From: an uncultured Gemmatimonadales bacterium
GTDB lineage: Bacteria > Gemmatimonadota > Gemmatimonadetes > Gemmatimonadales > GWC2-71-9
DNA length: 64,000 bases
Assembly: GCA_947259405.1 (NCBI GenBank)
Contig: CAMYLY010000011.1
Span: 62,001 to 126,000, forward strand
Direction: 5' to 3'
Position numbers and translations under genes: made by a program. The notes beneath the pieces were generated by a model that saw only the letters and a list, made by a program, of their open reading frames with translations, did no database searches and had not been told where the DNA came from. The first letter of the stretch is position 1. The number at the start of each line of letters is the position of its first letter. Of the stretch, positions 1,980-12,157 are shown one piece after another.

Positions 1980-3545
1980 ATGCGTTGCTTGCCTACTCCC
2001 CCGAGCCTACGGGCTGGTGTCGCCACCGCGTTCGCCCTCGCCGTTGCGGCTCCGCCGCTCGCCTCACAGGACCCTGCCCGTTCCAGTTCGCTGCCTGAGG
2101 GCCCGACCACGGATCGGGTCGTCGGACTCGTGGAGGCGCTCAGTAGCGGTTCGCGACCGGGCATCCGGGCCTTCATCGACACGCACTACACATCGAGCTA
2201 CTCCGGTTTCGGGTCAGCTCAGAACCTCGAGAATTACTGGGCAGCAGTCTACCAGGAGGTCGGGCCCCTTAGCGTCGAGGTCTTCGAGACCCTGACGTTG
2301 GGGCCCCGCCAGCTTCAGGTCTACTGGGCCCGGGGCCATCGGACCCGCAGCTGGATCGGCATTCGACTGGATGTGGACACCCTGCCTCCCTACCAGATCG
2401 AAGGCAACTCCGTACTTCGGGGTGCGCGTCCCCGCAGCGGGCCACGACCCGACCGGGCTGCCGCCGGGGCGGATCCGCTCGATGTCGAACGGCTTGCCGC
2501 GTACCTCGACGAGTGGCTGTCCGGCGCGGCGGATGAGGACCACTTCTCCGGTGCGGTCGCGCTCTGGCACGGCGGGCAACCCATCTACCTCAAGGGGTTC
2601 GGGTTAGCCGACCGTGAGCGGGCGATCCCGGTGAGTCCGGAGACACCATTCCGACTTGCCTCCGTGACCAAAATGTTCACCGGGGTCGCCATCGCACAGC
2701 TTGCGGAGCGTGGGCAGCTCTCATACGACGACCCGCTCTCGAAGTTCATTCCCGAGTATCCATCACACATTGCGGACCAAGTGACGGTCCACCACCTCCT
2801 GACCCACACCTCAGGCATCGAAATTGACGACGATCGTGATTTCAATGACGCCGTCCGCGTCTCGACGTCCATGGGAGAGCTACTCGAGGCACAGCTTCGA
2901 TTCATCAGGCGACTCAACCGGGGGAACTATGACGACTTCGCACCGCTGACCGAGTTCGACTACACGAACGAAGGGATCGATCTCCTCGGCATCATCGTCG
3001 AACGCGTGAGCGGATCCTCGTGGAGCACGTATCTGCAGGACCACGTGTTCGCGCCGGCCGGGATGACACGGACCGGACCTCACGTGCTCGAGCCGCCAGT
3101 CGAGCTAGCGGTGCCCTATACTAGCCGAGGCATCGGAGGCGGATGGTCCGGCGAAGGATTGCGCGCCGTCCCACCCGCGTCGATGGTTGGGTCGGGCAGG
3201 ATTCGACCAGCGGGATCGGGCTGGTCCACCGCCAGAGACATGGCGCGCTTCGTCCAAGCACTCCGCGACGGTACGTTGCTCAGTGCCGAGTCCTACAGCC
3301 TGATGACGACCCCACACATCGTGGCCGGACAAATCCCAGGCGAAGATCTGGCGTATGGGTATACGCTCAACGTCGACCGACGCAACGGGCTCACCGTGCT
3401 CGGTCACGGTGGCGGGGCGCCTGGAATCAACACGCATGTGCGGTGGTATCCGCAAGGAGATTGGATCGTGGTCGTCCTAGCGAATAGGGATCGCGGCGCG
3501 AATCACGTGTCCTGGCATATCGAGGAATTGATCGGTGCGCGATGA
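1980..3545 (+). CDS. serine hydrolase, beta-lactamase/PBP4 family (class C-like), secreted
   Basis: The frame stays open up to 1869, but the ATG at 1980 begins a clear signal peptide (VATAFALAVAAPPLASQ), so I take that start (521 residues). An N-terminal ~150-residue region (probable NTF2/DUF-like) precedes the catalytic domain, which begins near residue 170. The S-x-x-K motif is SVTK (Ser228, Lys231), the Y-x-N motif is YTN (328-330), and a late HGGG takes the place of KTG/HTG. Members of this family include D-aminopeptidases, esterases and D,D-peptidases; the substrate cannot be read from the sequence. It probably acts in the periplasm or outside the cell. Confidence 0.88.
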   Translation: MRCLPTPPSLRAGVATAFALAVAAPPLASQDPARSSSLPEGPTTDRVVGLVEALSSGSRPGIRAFIDTHYTSSYSGFGSAQNLENYWAAVYQEVGPLSVEVFETLTLGPRQLQVYWARGHRTRSWIGIRLDVDTLPPYQIEGNSVLRGARPRSGPRPDRAAAGADPLDVERLAAYLDEWLSGAADEDHFSGAVALWHGGQPIYLKGFGLADRERAIPVSPETPFRLASVTKMFTGVAIAQLAERGQLSYDDPLSKFIPEYPSHIADQVTVHHLLTHTSGIEIDDDRDFNDAVRVSTSMGELLEAQLRFIRRLNRGNYDDFAPLTEFDYTNEGIDLLGIIVERVSGSSWSTYLQDHVFAPAGMTRTGPHVLEPPVELAVPYTSRGIGGGWSGEGLRAVPPASMVGSGRIRPAGSGWSTARDMARFVQALRDGTLLSAESYSLMTTPHIVAGQIPGEDLAYGYTLNVDRRNGLTVLGHGGGAPGINTHVRWYPQGDWIVVVLANRDRGANHVSWHIEELIGAR

Positions 3546-3563
3546 AGCCACCACGCCTGGCCA

Positions 3564-4862
3564 CTACGGCGATGGCCCGCGTGCCTGTTCTGATCCGCGA
3601 TTCTCACACTCGCCTTCGGTCATCGGCCCCGGACGTTCGGTCACACGTAGTCGATACGACCCCGACTCATCGGGGAGCGCCGTGTTGACGACGATACGAT
3701 AGGTCCCATCCGCGGCGGCTGTGACCGTCACGCGTGCATTGCAGCGACCCCCGCCGTCGTCATCCCGAAGGAGTTCACCGGTCGGCGTTAACACGAAGAG
3801 AAAAGCGTCAAAGTCGTCAGAGAGGAGATCAACCGTGACAGAAGGTGCATCGCGCAGCACCAGATCCCATGCCTGCGCGTAGGTCCCGTCGGCTCCCACG
3901 CTGTCGCGGGCGGTGAGCGTTCCGCTGTGCTCCCGGTCCATCATCAGTTGACGACCATCGGTGGCCAACGCCTTGAGCCACGTGTCGACCCCGGTGTTAC
4001 AGGGTCCCTCCACCTGCGGGAGCGGCTCCTGGCCCGCCCGAAGAAGGAACCGCCCGGTGGATTCCGCCAGCACGCTATTCGCGACGATCGTATAGTCTCC
4101 CGGCGGTAGCTCCTCCATCATCACCCGGGCGTTACAGGCGCCGGCCCCGTCGTCGTCGAAGACCGGCTCGACACCTTCACCCGGAAGCAGAATGAGGAAC
4201 GAGTCGAAGTCTTCCGAGATCATGTCGACGTAGACCGGCCCACCCTGCGGGAGTCGAAGCGTCCACGCCTGCATGAACGTCCCATCCCAGCTCACACTGT
4301 CCGCTGATATGAGTGATCCAGAAGCCTCGGTCCCCACCGACACCAAGCGACCTTCCATCGGCAACGAACGGAGCCACGCCACCTGTTCAGCGGTGAATGC
4401 GGGAGCCGCAGTACAATCCCCCTCCGTCGTGGGGCCCGGCTGTTCCGTCACACGGATGCGATACGAACCCACGCCACCCTGCCGCACGGTGTTCGCGGCA
4501 ACCCGGAAGCTCCCGCTCTGCTCGGCAACGAGCTGGATGCGGGCATCGCACGCACCCGCGCCGTCATCATCTACGAGGACTTCGGTGAATCCAGGACCGC
4601 CGATAATCAGGAAGGCGTCGAAGTCGTCCGACAAGAGGTCGACGGTCACGCGTTCGCCTTCCTGCAGCGCGAGCACCCACACTTGGATGAAGGTCCCATC
4701 CACCCATTCGGCGTCCTGAATGGTCAGTGCCGCGGTCACCTCCGCCCCAACCCGTAACTCGCGACCTGCCGTATCGAGTCGACGGAGTTCCGCCAACTCC
4801 TGCGCGGAGAGGGCGGAGGCTAACATCGCCTCAATCGTCATCAAGGTCGCGAGCGTCTTCAC
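3564..4862 (-). CDS. secreted protein with three tandem PPC-like beta-domains
   Basis: This 432-residue protein has a short signal peptide (LATLMTIEAMLASALSAQ). The rest is three repeats of about 125 residues. Each contains a 'DGTF/Y.Q.W.L' strand, a 'VD(L/M).S(D/E)DFD(A/S)FL' strand, a 'DDDG.G.C(D/N)AR' acidic loop with one Cys, a 'Y.(I/V).N' strand and an end of the type P..EG.C. This is the plan of the bacterial pre-peptidase C-terminal (PPC) domain, normally an accessory to secreted peptidases. Here no peptidase domain is attached. It is convergent with the serine hydrolase gene, only 18 bases away. Function unknown; a surface or adhesion role is only a guess. Confidence 0.8.
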   Translation of the reverse strand: MKTLATLMTIEAMLASALSAQELAELRRLDTAGRELRVGAEVTAALTIQDAEWVDGTFIQVWVLALQEGERVTVDLLSDDFDAFLIIGGPGFTEVLVDDDGAGACDARIQLVAEQSGSFRVAANTVRQGGVGSYRIRVTEQPGPTTEGDCTAAPAFTAEQVAWLRSLPMEGRLVSVGTEASGSLISADSVSWDGTFMQAWTLRLPQGGPVYVDMISEDFDSFLILLPGEGVEPVFDDDGAGACNARVMMEELPPGDYTIVANSVLAESTGRFLLRAGQEPLPQVEGPCNTGVDTWLKALATDGRQLMMDREHSGTLTARDSVGADGTYAQAWDLVLRDAPSVTVDLLSDDFDAFLFVLTPTGELLRDDDGGGRCNARVTVTAAADGTYRIVVNTALPDESGSYRLRVTERPGPMTEGECENRGSEQARGPSP

Positions 4863-7455: not shown

Positions 7456-8541
7456 CTACGCGGTTCCCTGTCTCCGGATCTTGACCACACCCCAGGTCAC
7501 GATGGGCACCACGTACAACACGATGAACGCCCATGTGAGCGTACCGTAGCCCCTGGCAATCAGGTCCATGAGACCAAGGGGCGCGAGACTGGTGGCGATC
7601 ACCAAGAACCCGATGCCCACGCCGGCGCGCGTCCATTGCGGAAGTCGTCCTCCTCGCTCGCGCGCCAAGCCATCGATCCGCTCGTTGAGCGCGTGAATCA
7701 GCCCAGCCCCACTCTCGATGAGCGTCCCGAATAGCATGACTTGAAACGCGATCTGGAATCCACGCGAGCCGAGCATCTCGAGCAGGTAGTTCACCGGCAC
7801 CGGCCGATCGAGCACCTCCGGGTACACGCCGGCCATCGCGACGTACATGAGTGCCGCCGGAATCATCGCGATCGGGCCCGTAACGGCGCCGGCGATCACT
7901 GCGTCGCGTCGACTTTCGAGATGGCGCACAACGAACAGCGCCATCGTAGCAACCACGACGTTGTACCCGGCATAGGCCATCCCGTCCACAAACCACCCCC
8001 CACGGACCGTACCGGCGCCAAAGGTCGCGCGGATCCCTGGCGCAAACTCGACGAAAGCCCACACAAAGAGCACGACATACACGCCGTAGAGGACGAACGA
8101 CCACACTGTGAGTACGCGCTCGATGGTCGCGCTGCCTTTGAACACGAGGAACGCGACGGCCAGCATGATCCCCAACACGCCGAGCACAAACGGTAGGCCA
8201 AAGGTTTCTTCCAGAATCGAGCCGGCCGCCGCGCCGATGACCGCGCCAATGATCGCAAGCAGCAGGACAAAGCACACTTCGAACAGCACCCACACCGGCC
8301 CAAGCAGTTCCTTGAAGAGATGCCGGTAGTCATAGGTGCGGAACGCGCGGGCGAATTCGTAGGTCGCCGCCGTGACCACACTGAACACCAGCATGGACAC
8401 CACCATAGCCAACAGGCCAGTGATGGGTCCCTTCATGAGAAAGAATTCCACGATTTCGCGACCCGTACCGTACCCACCGGCAATGACGATGGATTGAAAG
8501 ACCAGGCCCGGAAGGAGGAACCGTCTAAACCAGGAGGTCAT
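7456..8541 (-). CDS. YkvI-like integral membrane protein (APC/LeuT-fold transporter relative)
   Basis: This 361-residue protein is almost entirely hydrophobic, with about ten helices. Near the N-terminus it has the unwound-helix motif GGYGTGREIVEFF, which resembles helix 1 of LeuT-fold transporters and matches the uncharacterised YkvI family. The substrate is unknown. It is convergent with modC (25 bases) and I see no operon partner. The start lies 4 bases from a GTGAGCGGTGAG repeat, and no convincing Shine-Dalgarno precedes it. Confidence 0.78.
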   Translation of the reverse strand: MTSWFRRFLLPGLVFQSIVIAGGYGTGREIVEFFLMKGPITGLLAMVVSMLVFSVVTAATYEFARAFRTYDYRHLFKELLGPVWVLFEVCFVLLLAIIGAVIGAAAGSILEETFGLPFVLGVLGIMLAVAFLVFKGSATIERVLTVWSFVLYGVYVVLFVWAFVEFAPGIRATFGAGTVRGGWFVDGMAYAGYNVVVATMALFVVRHLESRRDAVIAGAVTGPIAMIPAALMYVAMAGVYPEVLDRPVPVNYLLEMLGSRGFQIAFQVMLFGTLIESGAGLIHALNERIDGLARERGGRLPQWTRAGVGIGFLVIATSLAPLGLMDLIARGYGTLTWAFIVLYVVPIVTWGVVKIRRQGTA

Positions 8542-9795: not shown

Positions 9796-10458
9796 TCACA
9801 AATGTTCACTCCATTGCACGATCGAATCGGCGAGCTCCGCCATGACGTTGTCTTCCGTGCGACCAGACCGCTGCAAAACCTTAAAGGAGTGGTCGCCGCC
9901 CTCGACAACGTGAAGCGTCGCCACGTCCCCAAGACCCTCGCAGACTGGCGCCAGGTGCTCGAGGTCCGCCAAGGTATCGCGCGTACCTTGGAGAAACAAC
10001 ATCGGGATATCGATGTCGCGCAGGTGAGACGCGCGGCTGTCGCTCGGCCGGTTGGGGGCGTGGAGGGGGAACCCCAAAAACACGAGACCTTCCACCTCGG
10101 GGAGCCGCTCGCCGGCCTGCGCTTGGGACGTCATCCGACCCCCGAACGATTTGCCCCCGGCAACCAGGCGCGTGCCAGGCGCTGCGGTCGACGCCGCCAG
10201 CACGGCAGCGCGCACGGTGGCCTGGGCGACCGCCGGGCGATCCGGCGAGCGGCGGCCCACCTCCATATAGGGGAATTGGTAACGGAGCGTGGCCATCTTG
10301 CGTGTGGCGAGTTCTGCAGCGACGCGCTCCATAAACGCGTGACGCATGCCCGCACCGGCACCATGGCCTACTACGTACAGCCACTTCGCACCTTTCGGAC
10401 ATTCGAGAATCCCCGAGACCTCCGCGATGTCGGGTACGGTGATCTTCACGTTACTCAC
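9796..10458 (-). CDS. alpha/beta-hydrolase of the KANL3/Tex30 type
   Basis: I choose the GTG at 10458, which overlaps the end of the upstream gene by eight bases, over the longer frame to 10563; this gives 220 residues. An oxyanion-type GHGAGAGM follows the first strand, and the nucleophile elbow is GGKSFGGRM (Ser in GKSFGG). Later come FLQGTRDTLAD (acid) and EGGDHSFK (catalytic His). These fit the KAT8-NSL3/testis-expressed-30 hydrolase-like family. No substrate is known; it is cytoplasmic, with no signal peptide. Confidence 0.85.
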   Translation of the reverse strand: MSNVKITVPDIAEVSGILECPKGAKWLYVVGHGAGAGMRHAFMERVAAELATRKMATLRYQFPYMEVGRRSPDRPAVAQATVRAAVLAASTAAPGTRLVAGGKSFGGRMTSQAQAGERLPEVEGLVFLGFPLHAPNRPSDSRASHLRDIDIPMLFLQGTRDTLADLEHLAPVCEGLGDVATLHVVEGGDHSFKVLQRSGRTEDNVMAELADSIVQWSEHL

Positions 10459-12157
10459 CCTCAGGTCTCGCCGCTGACTCCCAACCGCTCCATCCCGGGC
10501 CTCGCACCACTCGCCCTGGCGTCGCACCCGTATGCTCACCGTCCGCCAGAACCTGGACGCCATTCACGAACACGTGCTCAACGCCGGTGGCATACTGGTG
10601 CGGGTCCTCGAATGTGCCGTGATCCTGAATCGTGGCAGGGTCAAACACGACGACATCAGCGTAGTAACCCGAACGCAACTCGCCACGGCGGCGAATGCGG
10701 AGGTTCGCGGCCGGCTGGGAAGTGAGCTTGCGGATCGCCTCCTCCAACGGGATCACGCTCTCGTCGCGGACGTACTTGCCTAAAAGACGTGCAAAGTTGC
10801 CGTACGCTCTTGGGTGAGTACTGGACAGCACGAACACACCTTCCGGTGCCTTGGACCCACCGTCCGACCCGAAGCTGACCCACGGGATCGCAATCTGGCG
10901 GGCCACGTTTTCCTCGGACATGAGGAAATACACGACCTGCACGCGACTGCCGTCTTCGACCACGAGATCCATCGCCGCCTCCTCCGGCGACACACCTCGC
11001 TCCGCCGCGACCTGGGCGAGCGTCTTCCCCGTCAACGGTTTCAGTTCATCATTCTTGAAACCCACAAGCAAGGTCCCCTCGGCCCCCGCGGCCAAGTAGA
11101 GGTTCTCCCACTCGTCCGTCGGAGTGGACATCTCGCGCCGGACCCGGCGACGCGTCTCCCCATCCTGGAGCCGCTCCGCCCAGGCATCGTATCCTCCCTC
11201 CTGCGCCCAGGGAGGCATCGCGGCATCTAAGCCCGTCGAGCCCGCGGTGTACGTGTACATATCCGCGGTGACGTGAAGACCTTCGGCGTGGGCGGTCTGG
11301 ACGCGTTCGATAACGGCGTCGAGCTTGTCCCAATTCGACATGCCCGCCGCCTTGAGATGGTAGATCTCGGCGCGGATGTCGGCCTCACGCGCGATGCGAA
11401 TCAGTTCGTCCACTGCCTCGAGCAAACGGTTCCCCTCGCTTCGCATATGCGAGATGTACATGCCGTCGTATGCCGCGGCGACCTTCGACAGCTCGATGAG
11501 CTCCTCGGTGTCCGCGTAGAAGGCGGGGGCGTAGATCAGGGACGACCCGACGCCAAGCGCACCATCCTCCATGGCTTGCCGAACGAGCGCTTTCATGCGC
11601 TCGAGTTCGTCTTCTGTGGGCGGTCGGTCATCATAACCAAGCTCGTGGATTCGGACAGTCGTCGCCCCGACAAACGAGGCGACGTTCGGTGCGATCCCGC
11701 GTGCCTCGAGATGCTCCAGATACTCGGCGAGCGTCGTCCACGCGATGTCGAACCTGATGTCGCCTTGGTCCTCGAGCTGTTCCTGCTTCATGGCATCATT
11801 GAGCGGCCCCTCGGACCACCCCTCACCAAAGATCTCGAGCGTCACCCCCTGCCGGATGTCACCCTGGGAGCGCCCGTCTTCAATGAGGTCCACGGTCGCC
11901 CAACTCAACATGTTGATGAACCCCGGTGACACCGCCAATCCCGTCGCATCGATCTCGACTCGTCCGCGCCCTTCCACGATTCCACCAATCATCGCGAGCG
12001 TGTCGTCTTTGAGTGCGACATCACCAATCACACCAGGAGACCCGGATCCATCATAGATCGTCCCGTTGCGAATAACGACGTCGTACGGCGGCGCACACGC
12101 GCCCACCAGCGCGGCAAGAACCAACAGTCGCATGCCGAGATTCCACGACCAACGCAT
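10451..12157 (-). CDS. D-aminoacylase-like amidohydrolase lipoprotein with altered metal site
   Basis: This 568-residue lipoprotein has lipobox VGAC (Cys21). The fold is that of N-acyl-D-amino-acid deacylases: DVVIRNGTIYDGSG at the N-terminus, ISHMRSEG (His237), EIYHLKAAG (His267), FGSDGG, and a C-terminal urease-like beta-sandwich (GYYADVVVFDP). The usual PGFID.HTH motif is replaced by PGFINMLSW (residues 78-86), so both His ligands of the alpha metal are gone. The Cys that normally bridges the metals appears to be Glu112 or a neighbour. It may be a one-metal enzyme or act on other substrates. It heads the hydrolase/EVE operon. Confidence 0.85.
   Translation of the reverse strand: MRWSWNLGMRLLVLAALVGACAPPYDVVIRNGTIYDGSGSPGVIGDVALKDDTLAMIGGIVEGRGRVEIDATGLAVSPGFINMLSWATVDLIEDGRSQGDIRQGVTLEIFGEGWSEGPLNDAMKQEQLEDQGDIRFDIAWTTLAEYLEHLEARGIAPNVASFVGATTVRIHELGYDDRPPTEDELERMKALVRQAMEDGALGVGSSLIYAPAFYADTEELIELSKVAAAYDGMYISHMRSEGNRLLEAVDELIRIAREADIRAEIYHLKAAGMSNWDKLDAVIERVQTAHAEGLHVTADMYTYTAGSTGLDAAMPPWAQEGGYDAWAERLQDGETRRRVRREMSTPTDEWENLYLAAGAEGTLLVGFKNDELKPLTGKTLAQVAAERGVSPEEAAMDLVVEDGSRVQVVYFLMSEENVARQIAIPWVSFGSDGGSKAPEGVFVLSSTHPRAYGNFARLLGKYVRDESVIPLEEAIRKLTSQPAANLRIRRRGELRSGYYADVVVFDPATIQDHGTFEDPHQYATGVEHVFVNGVQVLADGEHTGATPGRVVRGPGWSGWESAARPEGE

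Follow-up and report, generated by a model that had tools for sequence, protein, structure and literature searches.

Among the closest described counterparts of the protein studied here are AfDam, the D-aminoacylase of Alcaligenes faecalis (1m7j), and BbDam, an N-acyl-D-glutamate deacylase from Bordetella (3gip), which carry an HxH pair preceded by an Asp, a Cys ligand, a pair of His at the beta metal site and a catalytic Asp. A further characterized relative is the GlcNAc-1A deacetylase PpOngB. According to the available text of PMC12017989, PpOngB binds one zinc at the beta site through Cys97, His222 and His252, and this is sufficient for activity. Asp368 is catalytic, Lys254, Tyr285 and Arg379 hold the substrate carboxylate, Tyr194 holds the amide oxygen, and the substitution H68A or H70A abolishes activity even though neither residue binds zinc. 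The same text gives Glu/His/His as the site of NagA-type (CE9) enzymes, and the mononuclear NagA of E. coli has QxN at the HxH position according to the available text of PMC6016474.

Here we describe a gene from an uncultured Gemmatimonadales bacterium (contig CAMYLY010000011.1), located in a stretch of 64 000 nucleotides that was analyzed as a whole and is referred to below as the window. Its product has the fold of D-aminoacylases and is an amidohydrolase that falls outside strict subtype V, since both the Cys ligand of the Cys/His/His site and the HxH pair are absent. Members of the clade to which it belongs bear the annotation ‘D-aminoacylase’ or ‘amidohydrolase family protein’, and our searches of the open-licence PMC literature showed no description of a D-aminoacylase clade that is of the Glu type or lacks HxH.

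Fold, motifs and lipoprotein signal

The gene at 10451-12157 on the minus strand (ORF call and translation) encodes a D-aminoacylase-like protein of 568 amino acids. It matches Pfam family Amidohydro_3 (PF07969) with 60.7 bits, above the cut-off of 29.7, and scores 219.7 bits with NCBIfam NF006560 (PRK09061, amidohydrolase family protein), below the curated cut-off of 340. In sequence, the solved structures nearest to it are the D-aminoacylases 1rjp/1m7j (E about 4e-79). The predicted structure (mean pLDDT 89.0, pTM 0.89) matches 1m7j over 465 residues with Z 52.6 and rmsd 2.0, and resembles BbDam equally over the whole fold (Z 52.5, rmsd 2.0). Its top nine fold matches are all D-aminoacylase, N-acyl-D-glutamate deacylase or OngB entries (Z 51.6-53.0, rmsd 2.0-2.4), while the next family reaches only Z 33.4. 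NagA chains are absent among the 50 fold matches listed, which has no bearing on their relation to the protein.

An earlier note on this DNA, made from the letters alone, had reported that PGFINMLSW replaces PGFIDxHTH, that the Cys region is altered to LEIFGEG and that His237 and His267 remain, and our alignment to 1m7j agrees with it on each count. Residues 78-86 of the translation place L84 and W86 opposite H67 and H69 of AfDam, and the Asp that precedes HxH in AfDam and BbDam is Asn82. In the second motif, GEG appears where D-aminoacylases read GNCG, with no Cys in the loop; C96 of AfDam faces a one-residue gap beside Glu112, and Glu112 itself stands opposite Asn95. His237 and His267 align to H220 and H250 of AfDam, and D366 corresponds to Asp432, at whose column the D366A mutant 1rjq has Ala. 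The note's reading of the Cys region was nonetheless incomplete, as the region taken to be missing contains an invariant Glu that defines the clade, and in the rows sampled HxH is seen to be lost only where this Glu is present (see below). The positions of all these features are given in Table 1.

Table 1. Features of the D-aminoacylase-like gene in the window, with the evidence for each
Feature	Position	Strand	Evidence
D-aminoacylase-like gene, Glu type with HxH lost (LxW subclade)	10451..12157	-	ORF, translation, PF07969, structure model, fold match
Signal peptide with lipobox VGAC (residues 18-21), predicted anchor Cys21	12095..12157	-	Sequence pattern; 68/80 relatives similar
Strand 1 motif PGFINMLSW (residues 78-86), replacing PGFIDxHxH	11900..11926	-	N82, L84, S85, W86 in 80/80 relatives
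Strand 2 motif GVTLEIFGEGWS (residues 104-115), replacing GVTTxxxGNCG/GQDG	11813..11848	-	Glu in 80/80 relatives
Glu112, inside strand 2 motif	11822-11824	-	80/80 relatives; 46/46 Glu-group tree rows; 156/156 readable HxH-lost rows
Tyr209, substrate amide anchor (PpOngB Y194)	11531..11533	-	80/80 relatives; role from available text of PMC12017989
His237, retained metal ligand (AfDam H220)	11447..11449	-	80/80 relatives; 252/252 rows
His267, retained metal ligand (AfDam H250)	11357..11359	-	80/80 relatives; 252/252 rows
Lys269, substrate carboxylate anchor (PpOngB K254)	11351..11353	-	80/80 relatives; role from available text of PMC12017989
Tyr301, substrate carboxylate anchor (PpOngB Y285)	11255..11257	-	80/80 relatives; role from available text of PMC12017989
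Asp432, retained catalytic Asp (AfDam D366)	10862..10864	-	80/80 relatives; 252/252 rows
Arg450, in HPR motif, carboxylate anchor (PpOngB R379)	10808..10810	-	80/80 relatives; role from available text of PMC12017989

Relatives were encoded in 582 of the 593 stretches scanned, and the best 80 of at least 582 were used for comparison, a choice that biases this set to the subclade of the window protein. They are 66-74% identical to it and come from genomes titled as Acidobacteria, Gemmatimonadota, Bacteroidetes, Ignavibacteria, Verrucomicrobia, Planctomycetota and others, which argues for strong selection. Twelve positions (N82, L84, S85, W86, G111, E112, G113, S115, H237, H267, K269 and D432) are invariant in all 80. 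Across 298 genomes of the window's phylum, DNA able to encode PGF[IV]N[MV]LSW was matched at 78 sites, distributed over 76 genomes that include the window's own, and the reversed control gave no matches among the rows listed for these 298 genomes. The clade survey proposed in the earlier note thus finds the motif invariant in relatives from many phyla. Residue columns shared with 80 proteins from other genomes, together with the genome survey and its control, rule out what the note had named as grounds for refutation (an alignment artefact, with the His residues lying elsewhere) and make an alignment, sequencing or assembly artefact of any kind a practically negligible explanation.

The remaining hallmarks of subtype V are present in all 80 relatives, namely the two beta-site His with the catalytic Asp (H237, H267, D432) and the Lys, Tyr, Tyr and Arg anchors (K269, Y209, Y301, R450). 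Glu112, His237 and His267, the residues that would make up a subtype IV (NagA-type) site, are also invariant in 80/80, but the nearest relatives are D-aminoacylases.

Unlike AfDam and BbDam, the window protein is a predicted lipoprotein, with a signal peptide and lipobox Cys recognized by sequence pattern. Under a permissive pattern a lipobox-like site is found in 68 of the 80 relatives, one of which is too short to judge (a cruder, badly anchored count gave 60/81), and the residue following the lipobox Cys is never Asp among the 68 that bear it. By the +2 rule of E. coli, a residue other than Asp at this place favours the outer membrane. If it holds in the phyla of the window and its relatives, the rule would place these proteins in the outer membrane. 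The earlier note's suggestion of outer-membrane lipoproteins therefore stands for most of the 80 relatives as regards the lipoprotein, and its membrane destination is an extrapolation.

Residue states and phylogeny of the family

To place these changes in the family, we tabulated the states of the HxH pair and of the third-ligand position in a sample of paralogues from the window's own genome, close and distant members from the phylum and plasmid-borne members. The largest table has 252 rows, of which 251 are distinct (the window protein appears twice), and is weighted to the phylum. HxH is combined with Asp in 80 rows, with Cys in 7, with Glu in 5 and with another residue in 2 (L084 and L088), while 157 rows combine lost HxH with Glu and one is unclassed. 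One of the 157 (L231_m2) ends before HxH, leaving 156 readable HxH-lost rows; the unclassed row (L230_m1) is also cut off, and its loop still reads GEG. None of the 252 rows combines a lost HxH with Cys or Asp, and column 112 is Glu (GEG/GES/GEA) in 156/156 readable HxH-lost rows. The lost states are LxW (101), MxQ (27), LxQ (10), QxH (6), QxQ (6), MxG (2), MxH (2), QxG (1) and LxH (1). In contrast to this variety, the two beta-site His and the catalytic Asp are kept in every row. At the variable third-ligand position 249 of the 252 have Cys, Asp or Glu, each time before a small residue, and the loop is one residue shorter in most Glu rows (GEG/GES/GEA) than in Cys or Asp rows (GNCG or GQDG).

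An Asp type (GQDG, NPDG, NQDG or GVDG) is seen in 80 of the 252 rows and in the own-genome paralogues L083, L085, L086 and L087. These paralogues, from the window's genome and its phylum, belong to the same family and share the His pair and catalytic Asp with the window protein, from which they differ by an intact HxH in all 80 rows and by Asp at the third-ligand place. The Asp type outnumbers the Cys type 80 to 7 in this phylum-weighted sample, for which two of the table-filling searches used Asp-type queries. Two other own-genome paralogues, L084 (SLHSG) and L088 (ELE), keep HxH and have the usual loop without Cys, Asp or the GEG form.

Trees were built without the motif columns (residues 78-120). 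Glu rows fall on one side of a single branch in both the quick tree (69 of 89 rows, SH-aLRT 99) and the careful tree (46 of 66 rows, support 99/99). On the careful tree, one change is needed to explain Glu versus not-Glu, two to explain HxH versus lost HxH and 13 to explain the detailed HxH states. Because Glu has a single origin, its perfect tie with HxH loss counts as one phylogenetic event and not as many. The five HxH+Glu rows sit within the Glu group, where they cluster together (98/83) apart from the other Glu rows, beside two MxQ rows with weak support (84/36). This pattern fits an order in which Glu came first and HxH was lost later, an order that would make Glu the enabling change; the HxH+Glu rows may represent the ancestral state or a regained HxH, both of which are compatible with the tree. 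LxW also occurs, as LGW, in a second and separate Glu subclade (L177/L179), and LxW may have arisen twice. Across the sequences sampled, the Glu-type branch is large, widespread and strongly conserved.

A candidate one-metal site

We favour a model in which the window protein is a working secreted lipoprotein amidohydrolase that would most likely hydrolyse N-acyl-(D-)amino acids or peptides with D residues outside the cytoplasm. One divalent metal would occupy the beta site, with Glu112 as the substitute for the usual Cys or Asp and with His237 and His267 as its other ligands. The metal-bound water would be activated by Asp432, the substrate carboxylate would be gripped by Lys269, Tyr301 and Arg450, and the amide oxygen by Tyr209. 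The first step in the origin of this site would have been the change of Cys to Glu in a loop one residue shorter, making the HxH pair dispensable; HxH would then have decayed differently among subclades and been re-fixed as LSW in that of the window protein. Taken as a whole, from the rebuilt site and the functional enzyme to the Glu swap preceding the loss of HxH, we regard this model as reasonably probable. The earlier note had left the choice between a one-zinc variant and a new function, and the first is now the best-supported reading; Glu112 as a metal ligand, the single metal, catalytic activity, the substrate and the order of events are all what we infer.

Two described systems frame this model. 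The available text on PpOngB indicates that a one-zinc beta site suffices there, and PpOngB shares its substrate anchors with the window protein; it differs in requiring H68 and H70 and in using Cys97, none of which has a like residue in the window protein. E. coli NagA provides a functional parallel in outline, with a one-metal Glu/His/His site and HxH replaced by QxN as far as the available descriptions go. It belongs to another amidohydrolase family, and any resemblance to the window protein would be convergent. The Glu ligand of NagA lies on another strand. As a precedent for a one-metal Glu/His/His site without HxH, NagA favours the assignment of Glu112, His237 and His267 with Asp432, and the mode of action probably resembles that of a one-metal D-aminoacylase or of NagA. 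A metallo bile-salt-hydrolase was also considered and set aside as a different kind of site, since in the available text of the preprint PMC13081902 it retains H110 and H112 together with a Lys predicted to be carboxylated. Glu108 (in GVTLE) is a less likely new ligand than Glu112, as Glu occupies that position in 9 of 20 non-Glu types and 38 of 46 members of the Glu group, compared with 46/46 for Glu112.

The alignment counts against the model in one respect, as Glu112 lies opposite Asn95 and beside the Cys96 position, which leaves its location at the metal putative. It is possible on this account, though unlikely, that Glu112 does not bind metal and instead assumes the charge or proton role of HxH near the catalytic Asp, with the metal held by His237, His267, Asp432 and water. 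In PpOngB, as described in the available text, HxH is essential without binding zinc and lies near the catalytic Asp, so that loss of both His needs some compensation and a compensating residue would be expected. Yet Cys, Asp and Glu, the variable residues of 249/252 rows, are all possible metal ligands followed by a small residue, and Glu already occurs in five sequences that have HxH, making its recruitment as an HxH substitute unnecessary. We retain Glu112 as the candidate third ligand.

With three of six metal-site residues gone, the protein might instead be a relative that has neither metal nor catalytic activity and persists as a lipoprotein with a binding or structural role. CRMPs are such non-catalytic relatives of dihydropyrimidinase, and CRMP chains do appear in the fold lists, though only as general amidohydrolase matches. 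Besides His237, His267 and Asp432, which never vary in the 252 rows, Glu112, K269, Y301, Y303 and R450 are each present in 46/46 Glu-group tree rows, and Tyr209 is kept in 41 of the 46, being replaced by Gly in four and Thr in one. A non-catalytic protein is unlikely to keep exactly the metal His pair, the Asp and the anchors, and we consider a pseudoenzyme quite improbable; judged by these residues, a working one-metal enzyme is probably at hand rather than a broken one.

The beta-site His pair, the catalytic Asp and the Lys/Tyr/Arg anchors are common to AfDam, BbDam and the window protein, and all anchors of PpOngB have counterparts. The protein therefore probably still hydrolyses amides adjacent to a carboxylate as its core reaction. 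The new function envisaged in the earlier note finds no support here, given that the residues holding the acyl-amide and alpha-carboxylate of N-acyl-amino acids are retained.

Gene neighbourhood and implications

The same fold and metal site could also serve a changed reaction or substrate, for instance as a peptidase acting on D-residue muropeptides or dipeptides. This possibility is compatible with the one-metal model, and we consider it plausible but less likely than not. It gains from neighbouring genes suited to peptide or D-amino-acid salvage in some genomes, among them Croceicoccus, relatives in Deinococcus, L013, L022 and others. On a plasmid of Croceicoccus marinus (L163, 1-9629), genes for a dipeptide epimerase, a peptide transporter, a TonB receptor, DUF1611, a membrane protein, a serine hydrolase and the Glu-type protein all run in one direction, and this array looks like a D-peptide salvage cluster. 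Two Deinococcus relatives adjoin serine hydrolases and a MurR/RpiR regulator, one of them also a membrane dipeptidase; an M55 D-aminopeptidase gene (L013:2942-3838) lies 44 bases downstream of a Glu-type gene. PF00144 serine hydrolases adjoin L009, L035, L048 and L063, and a serine-hydrolase cluster was present at 13 of 82 loci. DUF1611 adjoins the L022 Glu-type gene by Pfam and was detected in 9 of 15 genomes checked; none was found in the genome of the window, whose completeness is 61%. We take DUF1611 to be DgcN. The dgcN gene is described in the available text of PMC12363236.

Set against this are the raw counts from our Pfam scans, which took in 27 of 79 selected adjacent genes in addition to the Croceicoccus membrane-protein gene and two window genes. 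Only 6 of the 27 suit peptide or D-amino-acid work, while 16 match other families (PRPP synthetase, IGPS, ADH etc.) and 5 match none. The window's own neighbours are uninformative as to function: the next gene on the same strand, which has a possible GTG start one base after the stop codon of the 568-aa gene, encodes an alpha/beta hydrolase (PF20408), and an 844-aa ORF 67 bases upstream resembles DNA ligase D, as judged by eye only. The neighbourhood evidence is therefore suggestive but mixed.

Two further observations concern gene arrangement. A membrane protein without a Pfam match, presumably YkvI-like, is encoded at 7456-8541 on the minus strand of the window; it is 43% identical to the one that accompanies the Glu-type gene in the Croceicoccus cluster, and a relative of it is also found near L011. 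In four genomes the Glu-type gene is followed by an HxH+Asp paralogue on the same strand (L062, at 1182-2822 and 2975-4486; L174, genome G304; L230, G019; L231, G039), and the two may possibly form a functional pair.

Despite their annotation as D-aminoacylases, members of the Glu-type clade lack the residues whose removal kills the characterized relative PpOngB, as far as its available description goes. A more unusual reading, which we offer tentatively and think could well be right without favouring it, is that they represent a distinct amidohydrolase metal-site subtype. In this subtype a strand-2 Glu would stand in for Cys and a one-metal Glu/His/His/Asp site would make the otherwise essential HxH dispensable. 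The HxH+Glu homologues would be the intermediate stage, and the group would form a major clade of outer-surface lipoproteins salvaging D-amino-acid material in many phyla. Should these proteins not be D-aminoacylases, the gene would be misannotated in 76 of the 298 genomes sampled from one phylum, and also in genomes whose titles name many other phyla. If they are active, they would exemplify the swap of a metal ligand followed by the discarding of a conserved catalytic motif, with living HxH+Glu intermediates still extant.
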